A DNA stretch of 42,873 nt from assembly GCF_023369855.1 (NCBI RefSeq), contig NZ_JAMBPP010000024.1, positions 1-42,873 on the forward strand, written 5' to 3'. A program made the position numbers and the translations under genes. The notes under the pieces were generated by a model, which was given only the letters and a program-made list of their open reading frames with translations, was not told where the DNA came from and ran no database searches. This DNA is from Actinotalea alkalitolerans (GTDB lineage: Bacteria; Actinomycetota; Actinomycetes; Actinomycetales; Cellulomonadaceae). Shown here piece by piece: positions 4,890 to 29,130 of the stretch. Within the stretch, counting starts at the first letter, position 1. Each line of letters starts with the position of its first letter.

Positions 4890-6170
4890 TCAGTCGTGCC
4901 CGACGGTGAACCAGAAGTCGCCGAAGGCCACGGTCGCCCCCACCGGCACCCGGACCTGCTGGTCCGGTGCGCACAGGATCTGCTGACCGTCGGGCAGCGT
5001 CACCACCGTCCCGTTGGTCGAGCTGCGGTCGCGCAGCCACACGCCCTGCCGGTCGACGCCCGCCACCAGGTGCGTCTTGGAGACCGACCTTCCCGGGTCG
5101 GGGACCTGGAGGAGCCCCCCAGGGGCCGACTCCCCCACCCGCGGGGCCGGGTTGCGGCCGACCAGCAGGGTCCGCTCGAGGACGAGCCGGCTCCCGTCCC
5201 ACAGGTCGAGGGTCGCGCTGGGGTCCACCGGCCCGATCGAGGCACCCTGCACCACGGGGACGCGCCGGCGGGCGGCCGACGTCAGCTGGGTGGCCTCGAC
5301 GTCCTCGGGCAGGTCGGGGTACCTGTCCGCGGGACGCCGCGCACGGGGTGCCGGCGGTGCTGGCAGCACGGGCGGACGAGGCGGTGCAGGCGGTGCGGGA
5401 GGTGCCGCAGGTGCGACATCGTCCGGTCTCGGGGCGGGCCGCTCGTCCCCGAGCGCCCGGCCCGGCTCGTGAGGGTCGACCGACCCCGGCACGGTGGAGA
5501 TGAGCTGGTCGCCGACCCCCGCCACCGGGCCGGTGCGCGGTACTGCCGCACCCGGTGCAGACGTGGCCGGCGAGGGTGCGGGCCCCACCGACGAGAGGGG
5601 TCCACCCGGTGCTCGCCCCGCTCCCTGGAGCAGGCTGTCCAGTCGGCGTGAGGCCTCGGGCGCCCCGATCCCGGGCCCGCCGACGGACGGGTCACGGCCC
5701 AGTGCGACGTCGAAGACGACCGTGCCGGCAGCCTTGTCGTGCCATCCCTGGCGCCGCCCGCTGCGGTCGAAGAACGGTGAGACGTGCACCACGAGCTGTC
5801 CCACCCCCAGCACCATGGTCCCGGCCGCCACCACGAGCAGGCGGATCAGCATCCGGCCCATGCCCACCGGACGCCCGTCGTCCGCCGAGAGCGAGCGCAG
5901 CCCGACCGCGCGCTTGCCCACCGTCCATCCCCGGGTCCCCTGGTACCACCACTGGAACACACCGAGCCCCAGGAGCAGCAGGGAGCCCACGGTGAGCAGC
6001 ACCAGGTCCGGGGCGGCCGGCCCGGTGACCCCCGACCCGAACGACCCGAGCACCGGCACCAGGCTCGCGACGACCAGCGCCCCGCCCAGGAGCAGGTACG
6101 CCACCTGGTCGATCAGGAACGCGAGCAGGCGCTTGCCCATGCTCGCGGGGACGGCTCCAGGCGTCGGCAT
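4890..6170 (-). CDS. RDD-domain membrane protein with C-terminal FHA domain
   Basis: The N-terminal part (about residues 5-160) is an RDD domain: three hydrophobic helices, a first helix opening KRLLAFLIDQ, and GWTVGKRAVGLR and the RRQGWHDKAAGT block typical of the family. A Pro/Ala-rich linker of about 150 residues follows. The C-terminal 110 residues form an FHA domain with GR, SKTHL and SSTNG motifs, which binds phosphothreonine. The membrane-anchored FHA suggests docking to a phosphorylated partner, and the kinase encoded upstream in the same direction is the obvious candidate (inference). ATG 6170 (426 aa) is preferred because AAGGAAG lies 13 nt upstream; the open frame extends to 6287. 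It is the last gene of the signalling cluster. Confidence 0.85.
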   Translation of the reverse strand: MPTPGAVPASMGKRLLAFLIDQVAYLLLGGALVVASLVPVLGSFGSGVTGPAAPDLVLLTVGSLLLLGLGVFQWWYQGTRGWTVGKRAVGLRSLSADDGRPVGMGRMLIRLLVVAAGTMVLGVGQLVVHVSPFFDRSGRRQGWHDKAAGTVVFDVALGRDPSVGGPGIGAPEASRRLDSLLQGAGRAPGGPLSSVGPAPSPATSAPGAAVPRTGPVAGVGDQLISTVPGSVDPHEPGRALGDERPAPRPDDVAPAAPPAPPAPPRPPVLPAPPAPRARRPADRYPDLPEDVEATQLTSAARRRVPVVQGASIGPVDPSATLDLWDGSRLVLERTLLVGRNPAPRVGESAPGGLLQVPDPGRSVSKTHLVAGVDRQGVWLRDRSSTNGTVVTLPDGQQILCAPDQQVRVPVGATVAFGDFWFTVGHD

Positions 6171-6308
6171 CCAGGTCTCGTCGCTTCCTTGTCGGACCGG
6201 CCGCCGGTGAGGGCGTGCGGTCGGGGTCGTCGCAGGGCCAGTGTCCCTCACTCTGGCATCGGCATCCGGGGGGTAGGACCTGAACACCCGCTCGCGCCCG
6301 CGCGGCGA

Positions 6309-7037
6309 TCAGCCGACCAGCCGGGCGGTGCGGAACAGCTCGTCGAGCTCACCCGAGGCGAAGGACCCGACAGGACCCGAGACGGACAGCATGGCCAGCG
6401 TGCCGTCGCCGAGCTCGACCGCGAGCATGACCTCACGCACCCCGGAGACCTCGCTCACCCCGTCCACGTGGTCGGCGCGGCCGTCCCACACGACCTCGTC
6501 GGTGCTCTCCCACGGCCCGACCACCGAGGCGAGCCCCCCGTGCGTCCCCGGGGCGGCGGTCATCACCGTCACCACCACCCCGCCCCGCGCGACGGCGCCC
6601 CAGGCGCCGTCGATCACCGTGCCCGAGGCCGCCGCGGTCTCACGCAACAGGTCGAAGGTCGTCGAGGGTGCCATCTCCCACGGTTCGAGCCCCGCGGGCA
6701 GCGTGAGGTCGAACGGGCCGAGGATCGTCCCGACGGACGCCGGTGGCGAGTCCTCGGACCGGTCCACCGCCGACGCCACACCGGCCGCCGTCCCCATCCC
6801 CGCGGCCAGGGCCAGGACAGCCGCACCGCCCATCAGGGCATGGGCACGCGCACGGGAGGTCGCGCGCCAGCGAGCAGCCAGCCGGCTGCACCACCCGACG
6901 ACGGTCGCCCATCGCGCCACCAGGGCCGCCGCGCCGCGAGCGAGGACGCCCCGCCCCCGGGCAGAGGCCGGCAGCCGGGCACCCGTCCCACCCCGAGCAG
7001 TGCGCCGCACCCCCGTGGTGGTCGGCGACGACGTCAT
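6309..7037 (-). CDS. Unknown membrane-anchored protein
   Basis: The 242-residue product has a basic, Ala/Arg-rich N-terminus (about 65 residues), one transmembrane segment near 68-90, and an extracytoplasmic domain of about 140 residues with alternating strands and helices ending in GELDELFRTARLVG. That domain loosely recalls Mog1/PsbP-like lipoprotein folds of actinobacteria (LpqN/LpqT type), but I cannot assign it. No cysteine is present. There is no Shine-Dalgarno site; TACCGT followed by six bases precedes the ATG, so the gene may also have its own leaderless transcript. It lies 27 nt after the transglutaminase-fold gene and before the RDD-FHA gene. A role in the cell-envelope cluster is inferred from position only. 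Confidence 0.7.
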   Translation of the reverse strand: MTSSPTTTGVRRTARGGTGARLPASARGRGVLARGAAALVARWATVVGWCSRLAARWRATSRARAHALMGGAAVLALAAGMGTAAGVASAVDRSEDSPPASVGTILGPFDLTLPAGLEPWEMAPSTTFDLLRETAAASGTVIDGAWGAVARGGVVVTVMTAAPGTHGGLASVVGPWESTDEVVWDGRADHVDGVSEVSGVREVMLAVELGDGTLAMLSVSGPVGSFASGELDELFRTARLVG

Positions 7038-7064: not shown

Positions 7065-9392
7065 TCAGCCGGCGGTCGCGGACCTTCCCCGCCGCACCGC
7101 CGCCCTGCGCTCCGACCGACGCCTGCGCAAGGAGACGGTCGCCCACCGGGCCCGCCACCGGTGACGGCGCGGAACGCTGCCCCGCATCGCCGCGATCGCG
7201 ACGTCCACCTGCCCCCAGTAGCTCTCGACCTGCGCAGGGGTCGGCTCGCCCGGACCGAAGACCATCGCATCGGCCCCCGAGGCGAGCACGGCGACCGCAC
7301 CGCCCACGGAGGACGTCCCGACCTGACGCCGTCGTCCACCGGAAGGGCCGAACGCCTCGGCCAGCTCGACCGCGGTCTCACGCCGGGTCGCCCGGACCGG
7401 CGGGGGTCGCCGCAGGTCCCGGGCGTGGTCGATCACCTCGTCCCAGCCTCCGACGACCCGTGCCACGGCCGGGCCTGCGGCTCGCCGACGCCGACGCCGA
7501 CGGCGCTTGGCTGCGACGACCAGCAGGAACGGGCCGACGAGCAGCAGCACGGGCACGCCGACCGCTGCCGCCACCAGCACCACCTGCCGCCAGCCGTCAG
7601 CGGCGGCGGGCTCCTGCCCGGTGTCCTCGGTGCGCGCCTGCTCGGTGTCGTCGTCCGGTGGGGTCACCGGGTCGGGCGGCGGAGGCGGAGGCTGCATGAC
7701 CTGGGGCTGCGGTTCGGACTGCTCCTGGGGGACGTCGTCCCGCGGGGTCTTGGTCTCGTCCGGGGTGGGATGGAACGGGACCCACCCGTGGCCCGTGAAG
7801 GCGATCTCGACCCAGGCCTGGACGTCCTGCCCGCGGACCACGAGCTCCTGGGCACCGGCCTGCTCCTCGTCCGTCACGAAGCCCAGGACCACCCGGGACG
7901 GCAGGCCCATCTCGCGGGCCATCAGGGCCATCGCCGAGGCGTACTGCTCGCCGTCGCCGACCATCAGCTCATCGCTCAGCAGGGCCGTCAGGCGGTTGGC
8001 GCCGTGCCCCGAGAGCGAGGGGTGGTCGTCGGTGTCGGGGCGCCCGTGGCTGAACCAGCCGCGCTCCACCAGGCCCGTCTCCAGGCTCCGGGCGACGAGC
8101 ACCGGTGTGCTCGCCGAGCCGGCGATCTCACCGGCCAGCAACGGCACCGCGTCGGGGACGGCCCGCGGCTCGGGCAGGGTCACCGCGCCGGTGGTGGCTG
8201 CGCCGATCTCCTCGTCCGTGGGCACCGTCGGCACCACGACGTCGACCGTCCAGCGGGTACCCGCGGGCACCCCGCCGGTCAGGACGGCTGTCCCCGTCGA
8301 GTCGTTGTAACGCAGGTCGGCGACCAGCTCGGCCGCCGTGGAACCCTCGAAGTCGAAGCGCTCGGCGTAGCCGACGGTCGGCAGCCACACCATCGGGAGG
8401 TCGTGGACCACGAGCTCGACCTCGGCGCGGGTGCCGCGGACCGACGTCGTGATCGTCTCGCCCACCCGACGGAAGCGACCCGACCCCTCCGCGGACTCGG
8501 ACCCGGCGACGTTCCAGACCACCCCGTCGAAGGCGTCCATCGTCGCGAGCCTGACCGTCGACCCCTCGGGCAGCCCACGGACCGTCAGCAGGTCGGTGTC
8601 GTACCAGTCCTTGACGAAGGTGCGGAAGGCCGAGAGCGGGCTCGCGTGGTCCCGCGGGTCGAACGGCGGGACCAGCTCGTCACGCAGCACGAAGCGGGGG
8701 TGCTGCTCGGCGAGCAGCGGCCCCCCCACGACCCCACCGGTGACGACCACGGCCCCCATCGCCAGGAAGGACACCACCCGGCGCGGCGAGAACGTGCCCG
8801 TCCGCCACGCGACCCACACCAGCAGACCACCGGCCAGGGCCGTCCCGGCGGGCAGGGGGCGCACGCTCTCCTTGGTCCCGAGCAGCACCGCGAGGCCGAG
8901 CACGGCGAACGGGACGAGGGCGGCCCACGCGCCCGCCCGCCGGGGGGTGGCTCGCAGGGCGATGCTCACCGCGCCCAGGGACCCCGCGAACGCGAGCAGG
9001 TAGGGGGCGGTCAGCAGGTTCCCGCTGGCACCCAGCGAGGGGTCGAGGGTCAGCACCTGCTTCCAGACGGTGACGACACCGGTCAGCAGCGCGGTGAGCG
9101 AACCCAGGGTGGGGACCACCCCGCCGACCGTCGTGGCGGGAGCCACGAGCGCACCACCGGCCACGAGGTACACCGCGATCCCCAGCACCGCCGTCACCGT
9201 GGCGGGCCACGCGCGACGCGCTGCGACCGACGCGAGCCCCGCACCCAGGACCAGCCCGCCGACGATCGGCACCAGCACGGCCCGGAACCCGTAGACCGGC
9301 CAGAGCGGCAGCAGGGCGACCACGAGAGCGCCGAGCAGGACGCTCACGTCGACGGTCGGCAGCGGGGTGTCCTTGCGCAGCGATGCACTCAT
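7065..9392 (-). CDS. TgpA-like transglutaminase-fold membrane protein lacking the catalytic triad
   Basis: The 775-residue protein has about seven transmembrane helices in the first 240 residues, a large extracytoplasmic part with a transglutaminase-like core (about 440-550), a further helix near 600-625, and a basic cytosolic tail (KRRRRRRRR). The core keeps the fold markers GEQYASAMALMAREMGLPSR and GWVPFHPTP. However, the catalytic Cys is Gly481, the His is Gln525 and the Asp is His541. The 44- and 16-residue spacings equal those of the triad in Pseudomonas TgpA as I recall it. Cysteine-protease or transglutaminase chemistry by the usual mechanism is therefore excluded, and a binding or scaffolding role is likely. 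ATG 9392 overlaps the DUF58 stop (ATGA). It corresponds to tgm in the bifidobacterial PFNA cluster. Upstream in-frame extension to 9500 is rejected. Confidence 0.9.
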   Translation of the reverse strand: MSASLRKDTPLPTVDVSVLLGALVVALLPLWPVYGFRAVLVPIVGGLVLGAGLASVAARRAWPATVTAVLGIAVYLVAGGALVAPATTVGGVVPTLGSLTALLTGVVTVWKQVLTLDPSLGASGNLLTAPYLLAFAGSLGAVSIALRATPRRAGAWAALVPFAVLGLAVLLGTKESVRPLPAGTALAGGLLVWVAWRTGTFSPRRVVSFLAMGAVVVTGGVVGGPLLAEQHPRFVLRDELVPPFDPRDHASPLSAFRTFVKDWYDTDLLTVRGLPEGSTVRLATMDAFDGVVWNVAGSESAEGSGRFRRVGETITTSVRGTRAEVELVVHDLPMVWLPTVGYAERFDFEGSTAAELVADLRYNDSTGTAVLTGGVPAGTRWTVDVVVPTVPTDEEIGAATTGAVTLPEPRAVPDAVPLLAGEIAGSASTPVLVARSLETGLVERGWFSHGRPDTDDHPSLSGHGANRLTALLSDELMVGDGEQYASAMALMAREMGLPSRVVLGFVTDEEQAGAQELVVRGQDVQAWVEIAFTGHGWVPFHPTPDETKTPRDDVPQEQSEPQPQVMQPPPPPPDPVTPPDDDTEQARTEDTGQEPAAADGWRQVVLVAAAVGVPVLLLVGPFLLVVAAKRRRRRRRRAAGPAVARVVGGWDEVIDHARDLRRPPPVRATRRETAVELAEAFGPSGGRRRQVGTSSVGGAVAVLASGADAMVFGPGEPTPAQVESYWGQVDVAIAAMRGSVPRRHRWRARWATVSLRRRRSERRAAVRRGRSATAG

Positions 9393-10582
9393 CCGGCCAC
9401 CACCCGGCGCAGCACCCGGGGCAGGTCGGCCAGCGACCCGATGCTGGCCAGCGAGAGCGTGCCGTGCTGGACGACCTCGACCGGCGCACCCTCGCAGCAC
9501 AGCAGGACCAGGGTGCGCACACCGACCGGGATGTGGACGGCGTGCGCGCGCATCGTCGCGCGGGTCGGCACCGAGCCGACCACCAGGATGGCGACCGAGG
9601 CGTCGGGGGCCTCGCGGGCGACCCGTCGGGCCAGGTGGTCGGCGCCGACCCCTCCGGAAGACGCCTCGAGGCCCGAGCAGTCGTCCAGGAGCCGCGGCGG
9701 GGTGTCGGTGCGCAGCTGCGCGTCACCGGCCAGCACGGTCAGGTCACGCTCGTCACGCAGGGCCTGCACGCCGACCGACGCGGCGACACCGACCGCGAGC
9801 TCGAACTCCCCGTCGGTCGCGTAGTCCCCGGTCGCGGTCGACAGGGCGACGGCGGTGTGCGTGCGGCGGGTGTCCTCGAACTGACGGACCATGAGCGCGC
9901 CGATCTTGGCGCTCGACCTCCAGTGGATGTGCCGGCGGTCGTCGCCGGCCACGTAGTCACGCAGCGCGTGGAAGGACATGTCCGAGTCCGAGACGGTGCG
10001 CGTCGCCTGACCCTCGAGGTCCCGCAGCACCCCCGACGCCGCACCAGCCAGCGAGACCAGCCGAGGGTGCACGTAGAGGTCGACCGGACCCGCCCAGCGC
10101 ACCTTGCGACGCATCAGTCCCAGCGGGTCTCCCCGCACCGAGAGCACCGGCCCGACCACGACGACGGCCCGGCGGGTGGTGGGGACCGCGAAGACGTCCT
10201 CGAAGGTGGCCCCGGGACCCAGCGAGGGCAGGTGGAAGTCCGCCGAGCCCTGGCCGACCGGCAGCACGATCTGCGCAGGGAGCAGTCGACGACGCGAGGT
10301 GTTGCGCACCGCGAGACGGCCCACCGCACGCTCGCCCACGGTGACCCGGTGGTCGGACATGTCCAGGTCGACCGCGAAGGTCGAGCGCCCCACGGTCAGC
10401 ACCAGGGCGGCGAGCAGCGCCGCACCCGCGGCGGCCGCGACGACCGTCAGCTCGACCCAGCCGAGCCGCCACCCCCCGGCACCGAGCGCCGCGGCCAGGA
10501 CGAGCACGACCCATCCCAGCGGCGAGACGGGGTGCACGAGCCGTCCGGCGGCCCGGACCACTCCCCGCAGGACGACTCGCAC
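9389..10582 (-). CDS. DUF58 (vWA-like) membrane protein
   Basis: The 397-residue product starts with two hydrophobic helices (about residues 15-60), followed by a beta-rich region and then the DUF58 hallmark LRDYVAGDDRRHIHWRSSAK with LMVRQFED. The C-terminal part is a degenerate vWA-like alpha/beta domain. DUF58 proteins are nearly always encoded with MoxR ATPases and are thought to act with them in assembling or maturing envelope complexes. GTG 10582 lies one base after the MoxR stop (TGA-G-GTG), and the stop overlaps the next ATG. Both arrangements suggest translational coupling in a MoxR-DUF58-transglutaminase triad. Confidence 0.9.
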   Translation of the reverse strand: MRVVLRGVVRAAGRLVHPVSPLGWVVLVLAAALGAGGWRLGWVELTVVAAAAGAALLAALVLTVGRSTFAVDLDMSDHRVTVGERAVGRLAVRNTSRRRLLPAQIVLPVGQGSADFHLPSLGPGATFEDVFAVPTTRRAVVVVGPVLSVRGDPLGLMRRKVRWAGPVDLYVHPRLVSLAGAASGVLRDLEGQATRTVSDSDMSFHALRDYVAGDDRRHIHWRSSAKIGALMVRQFEDTRRTHTAVALSTATGDYATDGEFELAVGVAASVGVQALRDERDLTVLAGDAQLRTDTPPRLLDDCSGLEASSGGVGADHLARRVAREAPDASVAILVVGSVPTRATMRAHAVHIPVGVRTLVLLCCEGAPVEVVQHGTLSLASIGSLADLPRVLRRVVAG

Positions 10583-10583
10583 C

Positions 10584-11632
<1,049 letters not shown>

Positions 11633-11636
<4 letters not shown>

Positions 11637-14600
11637 CCGTTGTCGGCCGGGAGCGTCGTGCTGGCCTGGACGACGGTGCTCTCGCCACGACCGTTGACGG
11701 CGCGCACCTCCACCTGGACTTCGGTGCCCGGCGCGACCCCGTCGAGCGGGAGGGTCGCCGCCCGCTGCGAGGTCGAGACGGGATCCGACCAGCCGGACCC
11801 GGTGTCCCAGCGCACCAGGTACCCGGTGATCGCGGTGCCCCCGTCGTCGCCCGGGGGCGACCAGCTTGCGGTGGCGAGCGGCGAGCCGGTGGTGCTGTCG
11901 ACCCTCAGGGCGAGGGCCGTGACCGGCCCGGGGGGCTCGCTCCAGCTCAGCGTCCGGGTCACGGTAGCCGCCACACCGCGGCCGGCCGAGGTCACCGCCT
12001 GAACGGTCACCCCGACCTCGGTGCCCGACCGGGCGATCGAGGTGCCCAGGCTGACGGTGGCTCCGAGGGCCGAAGTGCTGACGTCCTCTGCCAGCGTCGT
12101 CCCGCCCGCCGTCACGGTGTAGCGGTACTCGAAGCCCGTACCCCCACCAGTGGTCTGCGGGGCGGCCCAGCTGATGCTCAGGTGGGTCGGCCGACCTGAT
12201 GGCTCCGGCCTGACCGCGTCCACGGCGGTGATCGTGACGGTACCCGGCGGGACCGTGGGCGTGCGCTCACCTGTCGGTGCGCTCCAACGGCTCGACCCGG
12301 CCTCGTTCACCGCCCGCACCTCGAAGGTGTAGGCCGTGCCCGGGGTCAGCTCGGGCACGGTGAACCCCAGGTTGCTCCCAGCCTCGTACACGCGGCCGCC
12401 GGGCTCAGCCCGCACGGCGTACCCCAGCACGGGCGCACCGTTGCCGTCGGCCGCCGACCACGCGAGCGTCACCGTCCCGCTGCCCGGGGTGGCCTGCGCG
12501 GAGGTGATCGTGGGCGCGGTCGGGACACCGAAGGTCGATGCCCTCGCCACCCCCGCCGAGCCCGCGCCGGCCTTGTTCGAGGCCCGCACCTCGAAGCGGT
12601 AGGGGACCGCGTTCGCCGCGTCACCGAAGATGTACACGGTGTCGGTCAGGCCGCTCACGGTCCTCGCGCCGACACCCCCGGAGATCACCAGGTCGTAGTG
12701 CGCGATCCGGTCACCGCCTGACCCGCCCGGGGTCCACCTCACCTCGATCTGGCCGCCCAGCTCGTTCTGGATCCGTTGAGCCGTGACGGTGGGCGCGTCG
12801 GGCGCACGCGCCGGCACCATCTCGCTCCAGCCGCTCCACGCACCGGGCTCAGGCGCCCTGTTCTGGGCCCGGACCCGCACGGCGTACGCGGTGCCGTTGC
12901 TGAGGTCGCCGAGGCTCACGACCGTGCTCGACGTGGTGAACGTCGACTGCCCCTGCAGGTTCGAGGGGCTGATCTCCACGGTGTAGCCCGTGATCGGCGA
13001 CCCGGTCGAGGGTGGCGCCGTCCAGCTCGCGTCGATCCGGCCGTCACCGAAGGCGAGCGAGGGCGCCGACGGCGTCCCCGGGACGGCATCGGGACGTGCT
13101 GGGGCCGAGAGCGGGCTCGGGTCGGACCAGCCGACGGCGTTGCGAGCCATCACCGTGAACCGGTGCTCGACATCGTTGGTCAGGTTCTCGATGGTGCAGG
13201 TCGTGCTCGCGCACTCGTGGAGCACCCCGCCGGGCTGGGCGGTCACCCGGTACCCGGTGATCGGCTCACCGTTGTTGACCGGCGCGTCCCAGGCGAGCAC
13301 CACCGTCCGGTCACGGACCTCGACCGTGCGCGGGGCCACCGGGGTCGCGGGTCGACCACGGACGACCACGGTGACCCGGGCCTCGACCTCACGGTCGGCG
13401 GCGCCGGTCACGTCCCGGACCCGGAACCGGGTGACCATCTGGCCGATGAAGCCCGCCGCGGGGCGCACCTGCACCGAGCCTCCGGCGACACCCGCCGTGC
13501 CCGCTCCCGGCGTCTCGACCGTCGCCGAGACCACGGTGAGCGGTTGGCCGGGGAAGGGGTTGAAGGCACTGTCGAGGACGGCGACGGTCGACGTCCCGCC
13601 CTCGACGCCCGGTACCGTCACGTCGTTGACCCGGGCCAGCGGGCGCGAGCTCGCCACGACCCGGAAGTCGACCTGGGCGGTCATCGTCCCCGAGGCGCCG
13701 TACCCGACCTCGAGCTGGACGCCGCCGACGGTGCCCCGCGGCACCGCGGCCCCCGCTCCCACGGTCAGCATCGACCCGTCGAGCGTGACCTGGAAGCCGC
13801 TCTGCGGTGTGGACGTCAGCCGGTAGGTCAGCCGTTCGGCACCGGTCGCCGTCCCGGCAGCCGCCGCGGTGAACACCCGCAGGTCCACCCGGGCAGGGGA
13901 CTCGCCGGGCGCGACGTCGATGACCGACGGCGAGAACACCGGGGGGTAGTCCTCCGCCGCGAGCACCGTGATCGGCAGGGTCAAGGTGCGGGTGCGGGCC
14001 GTGGGGTCGCCCTGGGCACCGTCGGAGACGGTGAAGGAGATGGACGCGGGTCCGGCGTAGCTGCGCTGCGAGCGGTAGAGCAGGGTGCGGTCGTCCAGGA
14101 CCAGTCGCGACCCGTCGGACTTGGTCGCCTGGACGCTGCCGACGTCGACGATCCGGGCCGCGCGGCCCGGTGCGACCTGGACGTGCTCGTCCAGGGAGAT
14201 GGTCAGCTCGTCCCCCGCGACGATCCGCAGGTCGGGAGCGCCGGGACGGTGGATCGGCGGGAAGTCCCCCAGCGCAGGGACGGTGATGAACGCGTAGGAG
14301 CTGAGCCGACCCGCCTGCGGGTGGGTGTTGGTCAGCCGGTACGGCAGGGTCTGCGCCTGGTCGACCAGGGCGATCACGACCGTGCCCCGCTCGGTGACGG
14401 TGGCGACCGAGGCGACGGACTCGTCCACCGAGACCTCCAGGTCGCTCAGCGGGCCGCTCGGGTTCTGCGCGACCCCCAGGACGTCGACCTCGACGCTGGT
14501 CCGGTTGACGGTCTCGGTCGCGGCGACGACGACGTCGCGCGCGACCGGCCAGGCGAACGGGGCGTCGTCGGTCACGGTCACCGTCAGCACCGCGCTGTCG

Positions 14601-17600
14601 CTCCCACCGCGCGCGTTCGTCGCGGTGTAGGCGATCTGCAGCACCGCAGGCCCGTCGGGGGCACGCACGACGATGCGACGGCCCTCGACCCGCGCGTCGA
14701 TCCCCGGGTCCATCTCGAGCACCGGGTCCAGGAAGAGCTCACCACCGGCGGTGTCGACATCGTTGGCCAGGACCCGAACCTCGACCGACTGCCCGGGCCG
14801 CACCGTGACGTCGTCGTGACGGCTGACCACCTGCGCGGAGGCCGTCGGCCGGGACGCGATCCCGACCCGCACGGTGGCCACCGCACGCTGCCCGACCCAG
14901 TCCTCGACCGCGTACGTGAAGGTGTCGGTCCCGAGCTCGCCCGGCAGCGCCTGGTACTCGAGCCAGTCGGCTCCGACCCCGGTGATCCGTCCCTTGGTGG
15001 GCGCGCGGTCCTGGCCGAGCAGGACGACGCCGTCGCCGTCGCCGTCGATCCCGGTGAGCGGCACCGGGATGCGGATGGTCTCGCCCTCGAAGACCCGGGC
15101 GGTCAGCGACCGGGGACGCGGTGGCTGCTTGGTCGCGGGGTCTGAGGCGTGCACCGTCACGGTCAGCTGGGCCGAGGTGACGTTGCCCGCGGGGTCGGTG
15201 ACGGAGAAGGTCGCGTGGACCTCACGCGGATCGGCCGGGGCCTGGTACCGCAGCACGTCCCCGGACACGAAGAGCAGGCCCTGCCCCGGGCCCAGGGGCT
15301 CGGCCAGCTCGGGCACGAGGGTCAGCCGGTCGCCGTCGGGGTCGTAGGCGCGGTCCAGGACGGGGATCGTGACGATCCCGCCCGTACGCACCGTCGCACG
15401 GACGTTGGGCACCACGGGGGCCTGCTGCCCCGCCGAGGCCGGGATCGGCTGCACGAGGATCTCACCGACCGCCTGGGCGCTGCCGTTGGAGATCGTGTAC
15501 GAGGCCGTGACCGGCTGGTCGAGCACCCGGGTCGAGGTGATCCGGACGAGCTCGTGGTGCAGCACGGCGATCCGCAGCCCGCTCTCGGCCGGGACGTCCA
15601 CCGACTGGAGCACCAGGATCCCGCCCGCGGGGTCCACGTCGTTGGCGAGCGGCTCGATGGTCACCTCACCGCCGGGCGGGAGCAGGGCACGGTCCCGCAC
15701 CGCGACCGGTGGCTGGGGGACCTCAGGCTGCTCGAGCACGTCGATCCGGGCCAGCCCGACCGACTGCTGCGGCGAGGCGGCCACCAGGAAGGTCACGTAG
15801 TACGTGCCGGCCCGCGGCGCGGTGAAGGTGAACCGGCCGCGCTGGAGGTCCGGCTCGACCGTCGCACCCTGGACGTCGTCGACCCCGGCGAGGCGCACCG
15901 GCTCGCGCGAGAGGCTGCGCACGTGGTCGAGCGGCCGCACGATCACCGGCATGTCGACGTAGGTGACGGTGTGGACCGGGTCGATCACCGGGGCCAGCGA
16001 ACCCGCCGGTCGCACCTCGACCACGACCAGCCCCTCGACGCTCTCGAAGCCGTCCGAGACCACGACGCGGACCTGCTGGCTGCCCAGCACCCCCAGCTCG
16101 GCCTCGACGGTCAGCTCGCCGTCCTGGCGGGTACGGACCGTCGCGCCGCCGTCGCTCACAGCGCTGACCAGGACGAGGTCGTCGCCGTCCGGGTCATGGA
16201 AGTCCGGGAGCACGTCGTGGACCGCGAGCGCCCCCTCCTCGACCATCATCGACCCCACCCGCAGCTGGACCGGGGCCCGGTTCTCGCCGTCGGGGTGGAC
16301 GGTCAGCCGAACGGTCGCCGTGGCCGGCGCCGACGTCCCGCGCCCGTCGGTCACCGTGTAGGTGAACTCGGCCGTCCCGGAGGCGTCCGGAGCCGTGACC
16401 ACCTGCAGGGCACGACCGCCGTGCACGGGCTGCAGCACGCCGAACTCCGCGGGCAGCGGGTCGTGCTCGGAGATCACCAGGATCCCGCAGTCCGAGGAGC
16501 CGTCGTTGTCGATCACCGGCAGGATCGTCGTGCGCCCGGGACGCACACCCAGGTCGTCGTCGGACGCGACGGGTGAGGCGGACTGAGCGGTGCACTCGGT
16601 GAGCAGGTTCTGGGCGCTCTGCCGGGTCTGGGACTCCTGCTCCTCCTCGGGCGTCTCCTCGTCGGGCTCGACGTCGGTCCAGTTGGGCTCGCGCAGCCGG
16701 GCGTCCTCGAGCGGGACCCACAGCCGCCCACGCAGGGTGTCGTTGAGCACCACCACCTGGCGGTTCACCCGGAAGACGAGGCGGTCCTGGGTGCTCATCC
16801 CCTCGAGGTCCTTGACCCGCGCGGGCCCCTCCTCGCACAGCTGGAGGTAGCTCCCGACCGCGGTCGCCCACGCACCGTGCGCGCACGGACCGACCCGGAC
16901 CGGTGCGGCCGGCACCCCCGTGCCACCGGTGGGGTGCTCACGCACCTCCCCGCCGCCCAGCGGCACCTCCAGCAGGGCCGACGGCGTCGCCACGAGCACC
17001 GAGGCCGCCCGCGGTCCCACCTGCTGCAGCACGAGGTCGCCGCCGTAGCGGGACAGGTCGGTCGACGCCGCCGAGGTGTGCAGGGTGCTGCCGACCAGCA
17101 CCGCGATCGAGTCCCCGACGGCCGTGACCTGACCGGGCGGCCCCGAGGGAGGGTCGGCCAGGCTCCCGTCCGCCACCACCTCGACCCCCGTGTCGGTCAC
17201 CTCCCCTCGGAACAGCTCGCCCTGCGGTCCGGCGCCCAGCAGCAGCCCGCTGCGTGAGACCACGGCCGTGCCGCCCGGCCCCAGGTCCAGGTCCGGCTCG
17301 TCCCCGTCCACGCTGAGGGAGCCGAGGGTGGAGGTCGTCCGCGCCCAGACCCTGCCGTCGGCCGGGTCGGTCACCGCGACCGTGCCGGACGCGAGCCCGA
17401 CCTGCATCCCGATCGGCACGCTCACCTGGCTGGTCAGGGCGACGTGGGCGGGGTCGACCGCCGAGAGGCGGCCCGGCTCGGTGAGCAGCACGTCTCCGGC
17501 GTCCTGGAGCACGTCGAAGTCGGCACCCGAGGCGACCAGACCGGCGTTGAGCTCGTCGACCGCGGGGTTGAAGCGCCCGAGCGTCTGCACCGAGGAGTTG

Positions 17601-17764
17601 GTCAACCACACCGCACCGTCGTTGAGGTCCACCTGGGAGACGGGCACACCCGGGTAGACGATCGCCAGGGTTGCCAGGACCGCGGGGACGGTCACCGCAG
17701 CTCCGACGGTCGCCACCGGCCGGCGACGCCCCCGCAGGCCACCCAGGAGCGGACGGAGGGCCAT
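11633..17764 (-). CDS. Giant single-pass surface protein with propeller-like region, Ig-like repeats and six FN3 domains
   Basis: The 2,043-residue protein begins with a short basic cytosolic part and one membrane helix (about 16-37). About 40-370 is rich in short beta motifs such as DGAVWLTNSS and looks like a beta-propeller. About 395-1470 holds a string of bacterial Ig/cadherin-like repeats marked by V-R-P-G-x-x-V and LANDVD motifs. Residues about 1472-2043 hold six FN3 domains, each with a W and a PITGY-like element. An acidic linker lies near 375-390, and scattered Cys pairs suggest disulfides. ATG 17764 overlaps the kinase stop by one base (TGATG), fixing the start; the open frame to 18487 is kinase antisense. 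It corresponds to the fn3 gene of the PFNA cluster. Its ligand is unknown; an external sensor or adhesin working with the kinase is inferred. Confidence 0.9.
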
Positions 17765-19392
17765 CAGCCCGCACATCCCAGGGCAGGCTGGGTCGAGGCA
17801 CGACGGTCGGCGCGCACGATCGAGACCTCGAGGCAGACCTGCTCCCCCGGCACCTCGGGCCGGACGGTCACCTCGGTCTCGTCGATCACGGTCTTGGGAC
17901 CGGATCCCCCGGCGGTGACCACACCCCACAGGTACTGGTCGCCGTCGCGGGGGTCGGGGTTCACCCAGGTGAACCGGGCCGAGCCGTCCTCCCCGAGCGT
18001 GCCCTCGAGCCCCGTGGGTGCGGGCACCGCGAGCACCACGGCGGGCGTCGGGACCCCGGTGCCGGTCTCCACCGGCTCGTCGACCGGCTCCTGGCCGCCC
18101 CCGAGGGCGAGCGCACCGGCGACGGTCAGCGCGGCCACCACGACCAGCGAGGCCGCCACACCGGCCGGGACCCAGCCGCGGCGTCTGGCCGGGTCGACCT
18201 CCGGTCGCGCCGCGCCGACCTCCTGCGCGTGGCGACGCCACGCCTCGGGGACACCGTCGACGGTCCCGGCCTCGCCACCCTCGGCGCCGGGGACCGACGC
18301 CCCGGGGCTCCCCGCCGAGGCGCCCGGGAAGGGCACGGCGGCGACACCGCCGAGAGCACCTGCGAGGTCCGCCCCGCCGCCCTGGCCCGCACCCGGCGAC
18401 GGGGCCTCCGGGGAGACGCTCCGCACCGGGCGCAACCGCGTCGCCTGGTCGTCCGCGGCGGGGTCGTCGTCGGCCGACCCCGGCCATGCACCCGGCTCGC
18501 CGACCACCTCGGTGACGATGTCCTCGGGCAGGTCGAGCGAGGTCAGCGGGAGCATGAGCTCGGCCTCGACCAGCTGGAGAGCGCGAGCGAACGCCAGCGC
18601 GGAGTGGTGGCGGCGGGCAGGCGACCGGTCCATCGCCCGGGCCAGGACCGCGTGCAGGCTGTCGGGCACGTCACCCCGCCCCGTGGGTGCCAGCGGCGCG
18701 CGCTCGATGCGCGAGATGAGATCGGCGGCGGTGTTCTGCCCGTCGGGGACCTCGAAGGGCGAGCGGCGTGCCAGCAACGAGTACACGGTGGCCGCGAGCG
18801 AGTAGACATCCGCCCGCACGTCGCCGGTCGGGTCGGGCGAGAGCAGCTCGGGCGGCGACCACGGGATCGACATGCCGACCGCCGACCCCGAGCTCCACCC
18901 GGTGGTCGCGGCGATGCCGAAGTCGGTCAGCGCGGGCCAGCCGAAGTCCGTGATCAGGACGTTGGCCGGCTTGATGTCCCGGTGCAGGATGCCCGCCCGG
19001 TGCGCCGTCTCGACCGCCGAGGCCAGGCGCACACCGATCCGCAGCACCTCGGCGACGCCCATCCGCTCGGTGCGGTACCGCTGACCGAGCCCCGGACGGG
19101 AGCAGTACTCCATCACCAGGTAGGGGCGGCCGTCCGCGGCGACGTCCGCATGGTAGATCGTGACGATCGACGGGTGGTGCGAGAGCTGAGCCATGAGGTC
19201 GGCCTCGGTGCGGAAGCGCTCGCGGACCTCGTCGCCCAACGAGCTGGCGAGGAGGACCTTGACCGCGACCGAGCGGCGGGGCATCAGCTGCTGGTAGAGG
19301 AAGACGTCGGCGAACCCACCCATGCCCAGGACCCGGGTGTGCACGTACCCGGGGATCGTGGGAGGGGTGGAGGGTTCCCGACGTGCGCTCAC
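17764..19392 (-). CDS. Transmembrane Hanks-type Ser/Thr protein kinase (Pkb2-like)
   Basis: The 542-residue kinase has an N-terminal catalytic domain (about 15-275) with G-loop LGMGGFADVF, VAVK (K45), helix-C E63, HRDIKPAN (D139, N144) and DFG (D157); the APE motif reads SPPE. All catalytic residues are present. A low-complexity linker leads to one membrane helix (about 385-412) and an extracytoplasmic domain of about 120 residues. That domain resembles a single FN3-like fold with two cysteines near its end; there are no PASTA repeats. The start is GTG 19392, overlapping the FHA stop (GTGA). The next gene encodes the FN3 surface protein, a plausible external partner, and the FHA proteins are plausible substrates or readers (inference). 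Confidence 0.93.
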   Translation of the reverse strand: MSARREPSTPPTIPGYVHTRVLGMGGFADVFLYQQLMPRRSVAVKVLLASSLGDEVRERFRTEADLMAQLSHHPSIVTIYHADVAADGRPYLVMEYCSRPGLGQRYRTERMGVAEVLRIGVRLASAVETAHRAGILHRDIKPANVLITDFGWPALTDFGIAATTGWSSGSAVGMSIPWSPPELLSPDPTGDVRADVYSLAATVYSLLARRSPFEVPDGQNTAADLISRIERAPLAPTGRGDVPDSLHAVLARAMDRSPARRHHSALAFARALQLVEAELMLPLTSLDLPEDIVTEVVGEPGAWPGSADDDPAADDQATRLRPVRSVSPEAPSPGAGQGGGADLAGALGGVAAVPFPGASAGSPGASVPGAEGGEAGTVDGVPEAWRRHAQEVGAARPEVDPARRRGWVPAGVAASLVVVAALTVAGALALGGGQEPVDEPVETGTGVPTPAVVLAVPAPTGLEGTLGEDGSARFTWVNPDPRDGDQYLWGVVTAGGSGPKTVIDETEVTVRPEVPGEQVCLEVSIVRADRRASTQPALGCAG

Positions 19393-20612
19393 GCGCCCCG
19401 CTCCACCATGAACGTGACCCCTTCGCCGAGGTCGACGATGACGTGGGGCTCCACGACGGTGGGCTCGCCCGGGTGCAGACGCTGGGCGCCCTTGCCGGGA
19501 CGCAGCACGAGGACGCCGTTGGTCGAGCGCAGGTCGGTGACCAGGACGTCCTCGCCGTCCATCCGGACCTCGGCGTGGGTGCGCGAGATGTCCTGGTTGG
19601 GGCTGGCCACCGTCACCAGGCGCGGCAGCTCGCGGTTGGCGACCCGCGAGACCTGCGGGGCGCGACCCAGCAGCACCGGCCGGTTGAGCGCGACCACCAG
19701 ACCCGAGGAGAGCAACAGCTTCGCCGGGGGCGGTGTGCGTGGTGCGGGCACGGCCAACGGGCCCGGGACCGCGTCCCCGGCCCAGTCCGGGAGCTGGCGA
19801 CGCAGGGCCACCACGTCCGAGCTCAGCACGGTCATGCCGTCGTGGTCCTCACCCACCGGGACCAGCGGGGGCAGCAGCCCCGTCAGCTCGGCGTCCAGCG
19901 GCTCGGGCACCGGGTGACCCGTCGTGCCGACCGGCTGGGCGGAGGGTGACGCGGGTGCGGCCGGAGGACCGGTCGGCTGGGTGTGCGGGCGCTGGGTCGG
20001 CGTGACGGGGGCAGTGGCCGGTGCGGCGGGCGGCTGCATCAGGGTGTGCTCGAGGTCGTCGAGGCCGTCGTCGGCGGGCGCGACGACCGGGGGCGGCTCG
20101 GCCACCTCGCCGCCGGCCGTGGCCCGACCCACGGGCTCCTGACGCGCGGGCTGCGGCGCGGCCCGCGTCCCTGCGCGCATCTCGACACCGACACCGGCGG
20201 CCCGCACGACCCCCGAGAGCACCGGCAGCTCCCCCACGCTCGCGGCGTCACCGGCACCCGGGGTGCGCACCACGACCGTCTGCGCGTGCGCGACGATCTC
20301 CTCGCTCCACGTCGAGACCAACGGCCCGCTGACCAGGCGGACGCCCTCGCTGGTGCCGACCTCGACCTCGACGTCGCCCCGGACGACAGCATGGACCTGC
20401 CCGCCCTCGACCGAGACGAGCGCGAACGGGGGCAGGCCCGCCAGGCCCTGGCGCAGCAGCAGCTGCAGCTGCTCGGTGAGCCCGGCGCCCTCGCGCAACG
20501 AGGCCCAGACCTCGTGCACCACGGCCACCGGCGTCGTGGGTGGCAGCAGGGCGACCCGCCCGTCGGTGATCACGGCATACCAGTCACCAGGTGCGTACAC
20601 GGGCACGATCAT
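19389..20612 (-). CDS. FHA-domain protein
   Basis: The 407-residue protein has an N-terminal domain (about 1-150) with mixed alpha/beta character that I do not recognise. A long Pro/Ala/Thr-rich linker (about 160-260) follows, and then a C-terminal FHA domain (about 310-405) with LLGRAPQ, SRTHAEV and RSTNG motifs that form the phosphothreonine-binding face. No membrane helix is visible, so it is probably cytosolic. The threonine-rich segment around LEHTLMQPP could be a kinase target. ATG 20612 overlaps the phosphatase stop (ATGA) and the stop overlaps the kinase GTG, so it sits between phosphatase and kinase in a coupled set. It matches fha of the PFNA cluster. Confidence 0.9.
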   Translation of the reverse strand: MIVPVYAPGDWYAVITDGRVALLPPTTPVAVVHEVWASLREGAGLTEQLQLLLRQGLAGLPPFALVSVEGGQVHAVVRGDVEVEVGTSEGVRLVSGPLVSTWSEEIVAHAQTVVVRTPGAGDAASVGELPVLSGVVRAAGVGVEMRAGTRAAPQPARQEPVGRATAGGEVAEPPPVVAPADDGLDDLEHTLMQPPAAPATAPVTPTQRPHTQPTGPPAAPASPSAQPVGTTGHPVPEPLDAELTGLLPPLVPVGEDHDGMTVLSSDVVALRRQLPDWAGDAVPGPLAVPAPRTPPPAKLLLSSGLVVALNRPVLLGRAPQVSRVANRELPRLVTVASPNQDISRTHAEVRMDGEDVLVTDLRSTNGVLVLRPGKGAQRLHPGEPTVVEPHVIVDLGEGVTFMVERGA

Positions 20613-21514
20613 CGGTTCACCTCCGGAACACGGCTGCGGGTCGGGCTGGGGACGGTCGATCCGTCGATCTCGTCGTCCCAGGGGTCGTGGTCGTCCGGTG
20701 CGGCAGGGGACGCCTGGGAGCGGCCGTCCCGCGCGTTCGAACGCTGGGTGAGCTCGACGTCGGCGGCGTCGTGAGCCGCGGCGACGTCGACCACGACCGC
20801 ACTGACGTTGTCCCGCCCTCCCGCCACGAGGGCGTCGGCGACCAGCCGCTGCGCGGCGTCCTGCGGGTCGGCGACCTCGCTGAGCACCCGGTGGATCGCC
20901 ACGTCGGAGAGCTCGGTGGTCAGGCCGTCCGAGCAGATCAGGAGGCGGTCGGACGTGCCCGCGGGGATCAGCCAGTAGTCCGGCTCGGGCTCGGAGCCGG
21001 TCCCGACGGCGCGGGTGATGATGTGCCTCTCGGGGTGCCCCGGAGCGTCCTCGGGCAGCAGCTCGCCCGCGTCGATCATCTCCTGGACCACCGAGTGGTC
21101 CACGCTGATCTGGACCAGGCCGCCGGCCGCGAGCCGGTACACGCGCGAGTCACCGATGTTGAAGACGAGCCAGTACGAACCGCCGTCGTGCGCCGCGATC
21201 GCGACCCCCGCGACGGTCGTCCCGGCCGTGCGCCCCTCCGCGACGGTCTCCCGCAGGCGGGTGGCGGTGCGGTGGAAGCAGGCATGGACCTCGTCCGGAG
21301 AGGCACCGGCACGCCCGGCGAGCTGGGAGAACTCCTCGACGGCCAGCCGGCTCGCGACGTCACCGGCCGCGTGACCGCCCATGCCGTCGGCCACCAGGAA
21401 GACCGGAGGGTAGGCGAGGAGTGCGTCCTCGTTGAGCCTGCGGACCCGACCACGGTCGGTCGCAGATCCCCACGACGTGCGCACGGCACTCCCCTCGACG
21501 CGCTCCACCTGCAC
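20609..21514 (-). CDS. PP2C-type Ser/Thr protein phosphatase (PrpC/Stp-like)
   Basis: The 301-residue product carries the PP2C metal-binding motifs: NED (28-30), VADGMGGH (D43-G44), CSDGLT and GGRDNVSAVVVD, with GDSRVYR and TRAVG between. It should dephosphorylate targets of the neighbouring kinase. No membrane helix is seen. The start is GTG 21514, because AGGGGGGAG lies 5 nt upstream, the strongest ribosome site in the cluster, while ATG 21550 has none. Its C-terminal 35 residues are polar. As first gene of the coupled set it probably carries the operon's ribosome-entry site. It matches prpC of the PFNA cluster. Confidence 0.93.
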   Translation of the reverse strand: MQVERVEGSAVRTSWGSATDRGRVRRLNEDALLAYPPVFLVADGMGGHAAGDVASRLAVEEFSQLAGRAGASPDEVHACFHRTATRLRETVAEGRTAGTTVAGVAIAAHDGGSYWLVFNIGDSRVYRLAAGGLVQISVDHSVVQEMIDAGELLPEDAPGHPERHIITRAVGTGSEPEPDYWLIPAGTSDRLLICSDGLTTELSDVAIHRVLSEVADPQDAAQRLVADALVAGGRDNVSAVVVDVAAAHDAADVELTQRSNARDGRSQASPAAPDDHDPWDDEIDGSTVPSPTRSRVPEVNR

Positions 21515-21669
21515 GGGTACTCCCCCCTGCCGACTCCTTCCCGGGAACATCGGCGCGAACCGGTCCGGGCATTAGCCCGAATGGGGTAACGGTCCTGTGA
21601 AAGTGGTCGACCCCGGCAGGCCGGGTGGGTGGGCGGCTGGACACCGCGCCGAGGGGAAGGCTACCCAGT
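21515..21669 (-). promoter_or_regulatory. Leader/promoter region of the signalling operon
   Basis: This stretch holds no gene. On the minus strand it contains TTTCACAGG, then GTTACCCC, then GGGCTAATGCC. TTCACA and GCTAAT are 19 nt apart and could serve as a weak -35/-10 pair, but I am not confident. The strong ribosome site of the phosphatase gene lies at the near end (21520-21528). Confidence 0.25.
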
Positions 21670-25908: not shown

Positions 25909-27912
25909 TCAGATCCGGAACGCCAGGACGACGGCCGCGAGCAGGACGACCCCGATGACCATGGTGGCTGCGTAGGACCGCACGTAACCGGTCTGCCACC
26001 GCCGGGCGAGCTCGCCCGACCCGGCCACGACCCGGGCGAGCCCGGTGACGCTGCCGTCCACGACCTGGCGGTCGCCGTAGACCAACGAGCGGGTCAGGTA
26101 CTGGCCGGGGCGCATCAGCAGGCCCTCGTTGACCTCGTCCTGGTACAGGTCACGGCGCGCGGCACGGGTCAGCACCGAGCCACGCGGCGGAACCACGGCC
26201 ACCGGCGAGGCGGCGTACTGACGCCAGGCCAGGAACGCGCCGGCGATCACCAGCACCAGGGTCAGGGTGATGATCAGCGGGATCGGCAGCACGGGGTCGT
26301 GGTGCTCGACGTGACCGGTCACCGGCTCGAGCCAGTGCTCGAAGGCGTTGCCGATCGCCAGGACGCCACCCAGCGCGACCGAGCCGGCGGCCAGCACGAC
26401 CATCGGCCAGATCATCAGGGCCGGGGACTCGTGCGGGTCCTGGACCGGCTCGTCGACCGTCTCGGTCTCCGAGACCCGGTGGCCGGGCCAGCGCGAGCTG
26501 CCGTGGAAGGTCATGAAGAACAGCCGCGACATGTAGAACGCGGTGATGCCGGCACCGACCAGGGCGACCGTGCCGAAGACCCAGGGCTGCCAGCCGGTGC
26601 CACCGTCCGCCGCGAAGGCCGACTCGATGATCTTGTCCTTGCTCCAGAAGCCCGAGAAGGGCGGCACTCCCAGGATCGCCAGCCATCCCAGTCCGAACGT
26701 GATCCAGGTGATCTTCATGTACCGGCGCAGCGCCCCGTACCTGCGCATGTCGACCTCGTTGTGCATGCCGTGCATGACCGATCCCGCACCCAGGAACATG
26801 CCGGCCTTGAAGAAGCCGTGGGTCAGCAGGTGGAAGATCGCGAAGGCGTAGCCGATCGGCCCGAGACCGGCGGCCAGCATCATGTAGCCGATCTGGGACA
26901 TGGTCGAGGCGGCGAGGGTCTTCTTGATGTCGTCCTTGGCGCAACCGACCACGGCCCCGAAGATCAGGGTGATCGCACCGACGATCGCGACGACCAGCAA
27001 CGCGTTGGGGGCACCCTCGTAGACCGGGGCCGACCTGACCACGAGGTACACGCCCGCGGTGACCATGGTCGCTGCGTGGATCAGGGCCGAGACGGGCGTG
27101 GGGCCGGCCATGGCGTCACCGAGCCAGGCCTGCAGCGGGAACTGCGCCGACTTGCCGCACGCGGCGAGCAGCAGCATCAGGCCGGCCGCGGTCAGCAGAC
27201 CCTCGTTGGCCCCGGACGCGAGCCCGAAGACCGTCTCGAAGTCGGTGGCACCGAAGGCCGCGAAGAGGATCATGATCGCCACGAGCAGCCCGACGTCACC
27301 GACACGGTTGGCCACGAAGGCCTTCTTGGCCGCGACCGCGTTGGGCAGGTCGTGGTTCCAGAAGCCGATCAGCAGGTACGAGGCCAGGCCCACGCCCTCC
27401 CACCCGACGAAGAGCAGCACGTAGCTGTCCGCGAGCACCAGCAGGAGCATCGCCGCGACGAAGAGGTTGAGATAGGCGAAGAAGCGGCGCCGGCTCGTGT
27501 CGTGCTCCATGTACGCCACGGAGTAGACGTGGATGAGCGTGCCCACGAAGGTCACCAGCATCACGAAGGTCAACGAGAGCGGGTCGATCCGCAGACCGGC
27601 GTCCAGGGTGAACGCCCCGGCGGAGATCCACTCGAAGAGGTGCAGGTCTGCGACACGCTCCTGCGCAGGCGCACCGAGGGTCGCGACCATCAGGACCGCG
27701 CCCACCACGAAGGCCGAGCCCGAGGCAGCGACCCCGAACCAGTGGCCCCAGCCGTCGGCACGTCGCCCGGCCAGCAGCAGCACGGCCGCGCCGACCAGTG
27801 GCAGGGCCACCAGCAGCCAGGCCAGGGACAGGACACCCGTGGCCGGGACGGCCGCGGCCACACCCTCGACCTGCGAGCCCGACATCACCAGGGCAGGAAG
27901 AACTGAAGTCAT
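25909..27912 (-). CDS. nuoL: NADH-quinone oxidoreductase subunit L
   Basis: The product is 667 residues and is the distal antiporter-like subunit of complex I with its long C-terminal lateral helix. It shows [35 protein letters not shown] and [18 protein letters not shown], all diagnostic of NuoL. ATG 27912 is used; an adjacent GTG at 27915 is also possible. GAGGAG lies 9 nt before the ATG and overlaps the nuoK stop region. A 13-nt gap separates it from nuoK. Confidence 0.96.
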
Positions 27913-27925
27913 CACCGCGCGCTCC

Positions 27926-28225
27926 TCAGCTCTTCAACAGGTTGACGTCGTCGACAGAGGCCGACTGGCGGGTGCGGAAGATCGCCAGGATGATCGCGAG
28001 CCCGATGACGACCTCGGCGGCGGCCACGACCATCACGAAGAAGGCCATCACCTGCCCGCTCAGGTCGCCGTGCATGCGGGCGAAGGTCACGAAGGCGAGG
28101 TTCGCGGCGTTGAGCATCAGCTCGACACCCATGAAGACGATGATCGCGTTGCGTCGTAGCAGCACCGCCATCGCACCGATGCTGAACAGCACCGAGGCCA
28201 GAACCAGGTAGTTGGACAGGTTCAC
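27926..28225 (-). CDS. nuoK: NADH-quinone oxidoreductase subunit K
   Basis: The 99-residue protein has three transmembrane helices and the conserved buried glutamates in [13 protein letters not shown] and [11 protein letters not shown] that carry protons in the E-channel of complex I. The length is typical. The GTG start at 28225 overlaps the nuoJ stop (GTGA). The TGA lies in the leader of nuoL next to its ribosome site. Confidence 0.96.
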
Positions 28226-29130
28226 TGGACCGTCTCCTCGCCGGTGATGGACCGCTGCGGCGGCGTCGAGCCGACGCCACCGGTCGTCCCGGGTCCGGTG
28301 TCGGGTGCGTCGAGGTAGCGGGCCGCGTCGCCGGCGCCGTTGTCCGCGGCCACCTCGTCGACCGACCGCTCCTGGCCACGTACCCGCAGCACCCGGGACA
28401 CCGAGGCGTCGATCGGACGTCCCTGGGCGTCGAGCGCGGGTACGTCCATGGCGTTGCTGCGGGCGTAGACACCGGGGGCCGGCAGGGGCACCAGGCTGGT
28501 TCCGGCAGCGACCCGGGCGTCCGCGCGCTCCTTCTGACCGACCTTGCGGGTCAGCCGTTCGCGGTGGGTGAAGACGAGGGCGCCGACCGCTGCGGTGATC
28601 AGCAGCACGCCGACCACCTCGAGGGCGAACACGTAGTCGCCGAAGATGATCCGTGCCAGCCCCACCGGGTTGGTGTCCGCGTTCGCGGCGTCCAGACCCT
28701 GCGGGGCGATGCCCGAGGCGGTGAGCACCACACCGACGAGCACGCCGGCCAGTCCCAGACCGAAGAGCCACCCGATCCACCGCTGACCCTTGATCGTCTC
28801 GACGAGCGAGTCGGAGGCGTCGACCCCCACGAGCATCAGCACGAACAGGAACAGCATCATGACGGCGCCGGTGTAGACGATCACCTGGACCACGCCCAGG
28901 AACGGCGCCTCCTGCGCGACGTAGAGGATCGCCAGGGAGACCATCACCACGACGACGCTCATCGCGGCGTAGACGGCACGGCGGGCGAAGACCAGTCCGA
29001 GGGCCGCGAGCACCATGATCGGGGCGAGGCACCAGAACAGCAGTGCCTCCCCCGCGCTGGTGCGCCCCGTCTCGGCGAGCGTCCCCGCGGCCGCCGCCAG
29101 CCCAGGTGACGCGAGGTGCAGTGCGGTCAT
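28222..29130 (-). CDS. nuoJ: NADH-quinone oxidoreductase subunit J
   Basis: The product is 302 residues with five hydrophobic helices, including the [20 protein letters not shown] stretch that forms the pi-bulge helix of NuoJ. The last about 110 residues are a hydrophilic tail (Pro, Asp, Arg, Gly-rich), longer than in E. coli but common in actinobacterial NuoJ. It forms part of the E-channel with NuoA, NuoH and NuoK. ATG 29130 overlaps the nuoI stop (ATGA). Confidence 0.95.

Follow-up and report, generated by a model that had tools for sequence, protein, structure and literature searches.

Why does an operon retain a membrane protein with a transglutaminase fold from which the catalytic residues have disappeared? 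The question is raised by a minus-strand gene on contig NZ_JAMBPP010000024.1 of Actinotalea alkalitolerans (assembly GCF_023369855.1), the full 42,873 nucleotides of which were analysed and are referred to as the window. Its product, designated TGM, is, with a probability that we put at about 0.6, a conserved pseudo-transglutaminase whose groove binds a ligand, probably on behalf of a giant protein with FN3 and Big_9 domains encoded in the same operon. Pseudo-transglutaminase here denotes a protein which keeps the fold and evolves under purifying selection, in a family from which the catalytic Cys is absent; all three properties were found for TGM. The protein is laid out as follows:

7065..9392, minus strand: TgpA-like pseudo-transglutaminase (TGM), 775 amino acids, ATG at 9392, stop at 7065
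8709..9359, minus strand: N-terminal helical (membrane) region, TgpA_N-like, residues 12-228 (AlphaFold2 helices and Pfam)
7767..8138, minus strand: Transglut_core domain, residues 419-542 (Pfam)
7992..8009, minus strand: GHGANR, residues 462-467, with Gly462-His463 and Arg467 near-constant in the Cys-less family
7938..7958, minus strand: GDGEQYA, residues 479-485, with Gly481 at the Cys position and at the start of helix 481-494 (TgpA alignment, AlphaFold2)
7812..7826, minus strand: DVQAW, residues 523-527, with Gln525 at the His position (sequence, alignment of relatives)
7761..7775, minus strand: FHPTP, residues 540-544, with His541 at the acid position, a local variant (sequence, alignment of relatives)
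7482..7592, minus strand: long predicted helix, residues 601-637, presumed to be a second membrane anchor and to be followed by a presumed cytoplasmic tail

The first-pass annotation, made from the sequence alone, had described the motifs GDGEQYA, DVQAW, and FHPTP with Gly481, Gln525, and His541 in place of the triad, and the translated open reading frame bears this out to the residue (codons of Gly481 at 7952-7950 and of His541 at 7772-7770). Where a Cys-His-Asp/Glu triad would be expected, TGM reads Gly-Gln-His. Gly481 falls on the catalytic Cys when TGM is aligned with the crystal sequence of TgpA (6g49), and Gly481, Gln525, and His541 occupy the Cys, His, and Asp positions; a hand count on this alignment gives Cys-His and His-Asp distances of 44 and 16 residues for TgpA, equal to those of TGM, as the annotation had stated. 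A catalytic Cys displaced to another part of the protein, and with it an intact Cys-His-Asp set elsewhere in the domain, is ruled out, because no cysteine was found throughout the 775 residues.

TGM matches the Pfam family Transglut_core with 56 bits. Its score for TgpA_N is 21 bits (cut-off, 30), and 40 of 50 family members match that model at an E value of 0.01 or better. Pfam models exist for RloB-like inactive transglutaminases with seven helices; no inactive-transglutaminase model was among the Pfam matches of 50 Cys-less family members. In the Protein Data Bank, TGM has one significant sequence match, TgpA (6g49, E 1.7e-5; next match, E 0.84), which was again the sole match of a 50-member profile (E 3.3e-10). 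Structure prediction, which the annotation had proposed, yielded a TgpA-like fold. The AlphaFold2 model, calculated from 50 rows, has a mean predicted local distance difference test score (pLDDT) of 85.2 and a predicted template modelling score of 0.74; in ten-residue blocks from 411 to 540, pLDDT is 92-98, except for a value of 78 in block 451-460. The catalytic Cys of transglutaminases is located at the start of a helix; in the model, Gly481 opens helix 481-494, strand 524-532 contains Gln525, and His541 comes after strand 536-540. Among Foldseek hits, the periplasmic domain of TgpA ranks first (6g4h, E 3.6e-11), with a template modelling score of 0.69 by target length and a root mean square deviation of 7.0 over 317 columns.

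Is the missing Cys a peculiarity of this strain? A first set of 80 named loci was found via peptide patterns including MVGDGEQY and is for that reason biased at the Cys site; genomes were therefore searched with an alignment of the N-terminal part only (A1), the core being left out. In the first set, which with the window comprises 81 proteins, neither Cys nor His occurs at the old sites (0/81), and the third site is Asp in 61. Genomes with an A1 match numbered 181 of 297 in the order, 24 of 296 in a sample of the phylum, and 20 of 27 in one genus. From the order-wide search, 30 returned loci (one being the window) and 40 places, picked with their cores still unread so as to sample across families, were read; from the phylum-sample and single-genus searches, all returned loci. 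After removal of identical proteins, Cys was absent from the site in 177 of 179 distinct proteins with a readable core matching A1; the two Cys-bearing ones (loci L167 and L220) score lowest, at 33.8 bits against 85.1 bits for the next. The survey of actinobacterial homologues thus establishes the loss of Cys, which the annotation had seen in one protein, as a family-wide trait.

The other two losses carry less weight. At the Cys site, the 96 Cys-less proteins from the genome searches have Asp (37), Ser (25), Glu (17), Ala (10), or Gly (7); 24 of them, which are 24 of all 177 Cys-less relatives, still have His at the His site, and 33 of the 96 have an acidic residue at the third site. Joint loss of Cys, His, and acid is seen in 75 of the 177 (19 of the 80 in the first set, 55 of the 96, and the window; the third site of L152 was assigned by hand from a readable aligned letter), which makes the case built on "all three losses together" less strong than originally put. 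For comparison, 39 conventional copies were retained, each of which was required to have Cys at the site and to exceed 600 amino acids in length; since they were selected for Cys, its presence in them is no finding by itself. They were drawn from the 29 best-scoring Transglut_core loci (L201-L229), ten weak hits of the phylum search, and L180; L201 was left out as short, though it also reads Cys-His-Glu, and L167 and L220 are counted in both the 179 and the 39. The intact copy from the genome of the window is one of the 39. The triad is Cys-His-Glu in 38 of these copies and Cys-His-Asp in one, as opposed to the third-site Asp of most close relatives of TGM. Because the site varies and conventional copies have Glu, His541 is a local variant and the acid is no marker; loss of the acid as a part of inactivation is ruled out. 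With Glu as the rule at the third site in this phylum, an Asp criterion fits TgpA of Pseudomonas. A search with Transglut_core gave a match in 55 of 59 genomes, and no Cys-less core occurs among the readable Transglut_core cores outside the A1 matches (L155 and up).

Cys-less and conventional genes also differ in their surroundings. Upstream sequence of at least 6 kb was available at 111 Cys-less loci, which include the set found with the MVGDGEQY patterns; the gene of an FN3 giant of about 2000 amino acids lies upstream at 109 of them, and MoxR and DUF58 genes are present at all 111. An FN3 frame of 1798-2076 amino acids was also seen in 12 of 14 further Cys-less stretches, one of which (L264) covers the same place as L145. 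At 21 conventional loci (L239 is cut short), there was neither a relative of the FN3 protein of the window nor any frame exceeding 1300 amino acids, whereas MoxR is present in 21/21 and DUF58 was recognised in 16/21; two more conventional loci (L262, L263) likewise have no FN3 gene. It is the FN3 giant gene, not MoxR, that distinguishes the Cys-less kind from the conventional one. The suggestion that TGM serves as a scaffold for the MoxR/DUF58 pair is consequently not favoured over the alternatives, since conventional copies adjoin these genes too. The genome of the window itself contains an intact paralogue (on contig C29) next to MoxR and DUF58 genes of its own; this natural contrast between a Cys-bearing copy without and a Cys-less copy with the FN3 gene makes the role of MoxR-DUF58-TgpA modules testable. 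The Cys-less protein is present two or three times in some genomes (G021, G054, G153, G238, and others); of these copies, the weaker ones (L178, L179) are long-branched and also occur with an FN3 giant.

A tree of 118 rows (88 Cys-less, 30 conventional) and 314 columns, with the three site columns left out, was calculated by a quick method and includes some rows with odd composition or long branches. One change between Cys and non-Cys is needed on it, and all but two of the 88 Cys-less rows, 86 in number, group in one clade, which has a support of 100 in the Shimodaira-Hasegawa-like approximate likelihood ratio test (SH-aLRT); a single loss of Cys is likely. Within the Cys-less rows, at least 23 changes are needed at the Cys site, 38 at the His site, and 27 at the third site. 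The core is under purifying selection: in 11 chosen close pairs, the nonsynonymous rate (dN) was 0.008-0.117 and the synonymous rate (dS) 0.21-0.67, with dN/dS ratios of about 0.04-0.21. While the old catalytic positions vary, residues beside them do not. The 86 rows of the clade have His463 and Gln483 in all 86, Glu482 in 85, Arg467 in 84, and Asp480 in 78 (Asn in 7); in the 30 conventional rows, the position of Asp480 is Tyr or Phe throughout, that of Arg467 mostly Ala, and that of Glu482 is Glu in 7. When equal stretches before the site were searched in both groups, a Gly-His pair was found within 60 residues in 176 and within 30 residues in 171 of the 177 Cys-less proteins, and at either distance in 1 of the 39 conventional ones. 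Together with the family-wide loss of Cys and the predicted TgpA-like fold, selection and the near-constant residues lend good support to the retained, non-catalytic role that the annotation had argued for; peptide binding, which it had suggested, may be such a role.

A TgpA-type membrane transglutaminase would thus have lost its catalytic Cys, probably in a single event, while becoming linked to an operon with the FN3/Big_9 giant, a MoxR ATPase, and a DUF58 protein. Its fold would have been retained under selection, along with the near-constant polar residues His463, Arg467, Asp480, Glu482, and Gln483 at or just before the old site, and since both fold and residues are kept, TGM most likely acts by binding, not by chemistry. 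Outside the cytoplasm, it might serve as a receptor or holdase and hold on to part of the FN3 giant or to the wall peptide to which the giant attaches; the MoxR and DUF58 proteins, with the kinase, FHA, and PP2C products, could control it from inside. A wider proposal, which we consider tentative and rather doubtful in its full extent, is that the groove was converted once into a binding site for building or anchoring the FN3/Big_9 giant, and that the whole PFNA-type tgm branch of this actinobacterial order, bifidobacteria included, consists of receptors or chaperones rather than enzymes. If the branch has no catalytic Cys, assays of crosslinking or thiol-dependent proteolysis would find nothing, and the question becomes what ligand the groove holds.

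Several observations weigh against this interpretation. The association with the FN3 gene has exceptions: none was found at L136, that of L137 lies downstream, and of two remote relatives in which the Cys site is Ser, L251 has a weak match of 994 amino acids and L250 has none. The boundary of the A1 profile is not sharp, as the Cys-less L170 (24.2 bits) falls among ten Cys enzymes scoring 20.6-58.9 bits in the phylum search, which means that score alone cannot separate the two kinds; among 11 weak phylum hits that did not rematch A1, 9 are Cys enzymes and the cores of L165 and L175 are unreadable. In the tree, the split that adds L162 and L170, i.e., all 88 Cys-less against 30 conventional rows, has a support of 37, and two losses of Cys are possible because of this low value. 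Gln483 also occurs in 18 of the 30 conventional rows, and the placement of His463 and Arg467 along the groove is inferred from their position just before the Cys helix in the predicted model. Finally, L163 (L163/L263), the best-scoring conventional protein of the phylum search with A1, reads Cys-His-Glu and lacks an FN3 gene, and the Gly-His pair is already present in it. Since Cys and loop coexist in it, the loop predates the loss of Cys and may be structural, and the idea that it was gained as Cys was lost is not upheld; it may be a binding loop inherited from an active ancestor and kept when catalysis was abandoned. L250 (core GTSEQFA) has MoxR and DUF58 genes and a kinase match in its neighbourhood; L250 and L251 could represent an early stage or a separate loss.

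That the groove binds a ligand has to be weighed against other explanations for the same fold. It could be a mere structural spacer in a membrane complex with nothing bound in the old groove, as the conservation of general fold residues and the wide variation of the three old catalytic positions would allow; we regard this as unlikely, given that His463, Arg467, Asp480, and Glu482 are among the most constant residues and mostly differ in conventional copies. Near-constant His463, Glu482, and Gln483 might alternatively point to chemistry without Cys, with His463, Asp480, and Glu482, often joined by Asp and His at the old sites, forming a novel catalytic or metal site. Proteins with Asp at the Cys site do tend to have His at the His site (23 of 37, as against 1 of 140 other Cys-less ones; examples are L091, L096, L112, L116, L119, L123, L126, L128, L138, and others). 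As proof of a new catalytic pair this co-variation was dismissed, the phylogeny-aware test having too few informative pairs and hence no power; the pair is possibly the first state after loss of Cys, or a salt bridge or metal pair. TGM of the window has neither Asp nor His at these sites, and a Cys site that takes five different residues in 23 changes and a His site with 38 changes do not resemble catalytic positions, which makes such chemistry improbable.

The intact paralogue beside MoxR and DUF58 genes in the genome of the window would suit a decoy or regulator of an active TgpA-like enzyme in the same cell. In genome G003 (L198/L259; about 1.8 Mb), however, the Transglut_core search found nothing but the Cys-less protein, which can therefore be maintained when no active copy is present, and the association with the FN3 gene would be left unexplained; we consider a decoy very unlikely. 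A decaying gene or a sequence error, for which nothing speaks beyond the missing residues themselves, has a negligible probability: with 177 of 179 A1 matches lacking Cys, chance or sequencing error is excluded, the core is under purifying selection, and no order-wide A1 match has an internal stop among the matches listed.

The Cys-His-Asp triad is conserved in TgpA of Pseudomonas aeruginosa, a membrane protein with an extramembrane transglutaminase domain like TGM; this domain has been called functional, and a transglutaminase assay is described (PMC3507681). TGM shares the spacings of TgpA and has it as the closest solved fold (6g49/6g4h), but lacks its Cys and His. The bifidobacterial PFNA cluster (PMC8430577, PMC6803598) has the gene order kinase, fn3, aaa-atp, duf58, tgm, which is also that of the operon in the window. 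The tgm product has been described as a putative transglutaminase (PMC6803598), whereas a homologue in Bifidobacterium merycicum (L078), examined because comparison with bifidobacterial tgm had been advised, shares 33% identity with TGM in the best segment (residues 63-773 matched), is preceded by FN3, MoxR, and DUF58 genes, and reads Gly-Glu-Phe in place of the triad. By its sequence, tgm of B. merycicum belongs to the Cys-less family, contrary to the published description as an enzyme, and its letters disallow a Cys enzyme; the papers deal with B. longum GT15. No report of a PFNA tgm without catalytic residues was found in the passages of open-access papers that were read.

Inactive transglutaminase-like folds are already known in eukaryotes and bacteria. 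RloB combines seven membrane helices with a transglutaminase domain that is called inactive and predicted to face the periplasm (PMC12239564), and the transglutaminase domain of the membrane protein HM2192 is called inactive (PMC12096838). Both resemble TGM as membrane proteins with a domain considered inactive; the partners of RloB, an aspartic protease and an ATP-grasp protein, are different. The eukaryotic proteins EPB42, CC2D2A, and FBXO21 (PMC10318531) also retain the fold without catalytic residues, in a different architecture and context. Peptide-binding or decoy roles suggested for inactive enzyme domains in MoxR-vWA systems (PMC7159879) are a parallel, not evidence.

The operon runs on the minus strand in the order PP2C, FHA, Ser/Thr kinase, Big_9/fn3 giant, MoxR, DUF58, TGM, 242-amino-acid protein, and RDD-FHA protein; the ATG of TGM and the stop codon of the DUF58 gene overlap by 4 bases. 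The neighbours of TGM are:

20609..21550, minus strand: PP2C-type phosphatase
19389..20612, minus strand: FHA protein
17764..19392, minus strand: Ser/Thr protein kinase
11633..18487, minus strand: giant FN3/Big_9 protein, open frame extending to 18487
10584..11636, minus strand: MoxR-type AAA+ ATPase
9389..10654, minus strand: DUF58 protein
6309..7037, minus strand: 242-amino-acid protein directly downstream of TGM, no Pfam or NCBIfam matches
4890..6287, minus strand: RDD-FHA protein

The true start of the giant is probably near 17.8 kb, beyond the stop codon of the kinase gene. No conserved export tag stood out in a comparison of 35 FN3 proteins. In the DUF58 protein, a Ser occupies a position that is Asp in 15 of 16 aligned conventional DUF58 partners. 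This position is variable in the Cys-less family, where several relatives also have Asp, and no parallel loss of a metal site is claimed. A full metal motif was not recognised in any of the aligned DUF58 proteins, Cys-less-associated or conventional. Apart from the copies of the window itself, L005 was the only locus read that has a recognisable relative of the 242-amino-acid protein. Upstream of the operon and on the same strand, the region 25909-34304 contains genes with domains of respiratory complex I.
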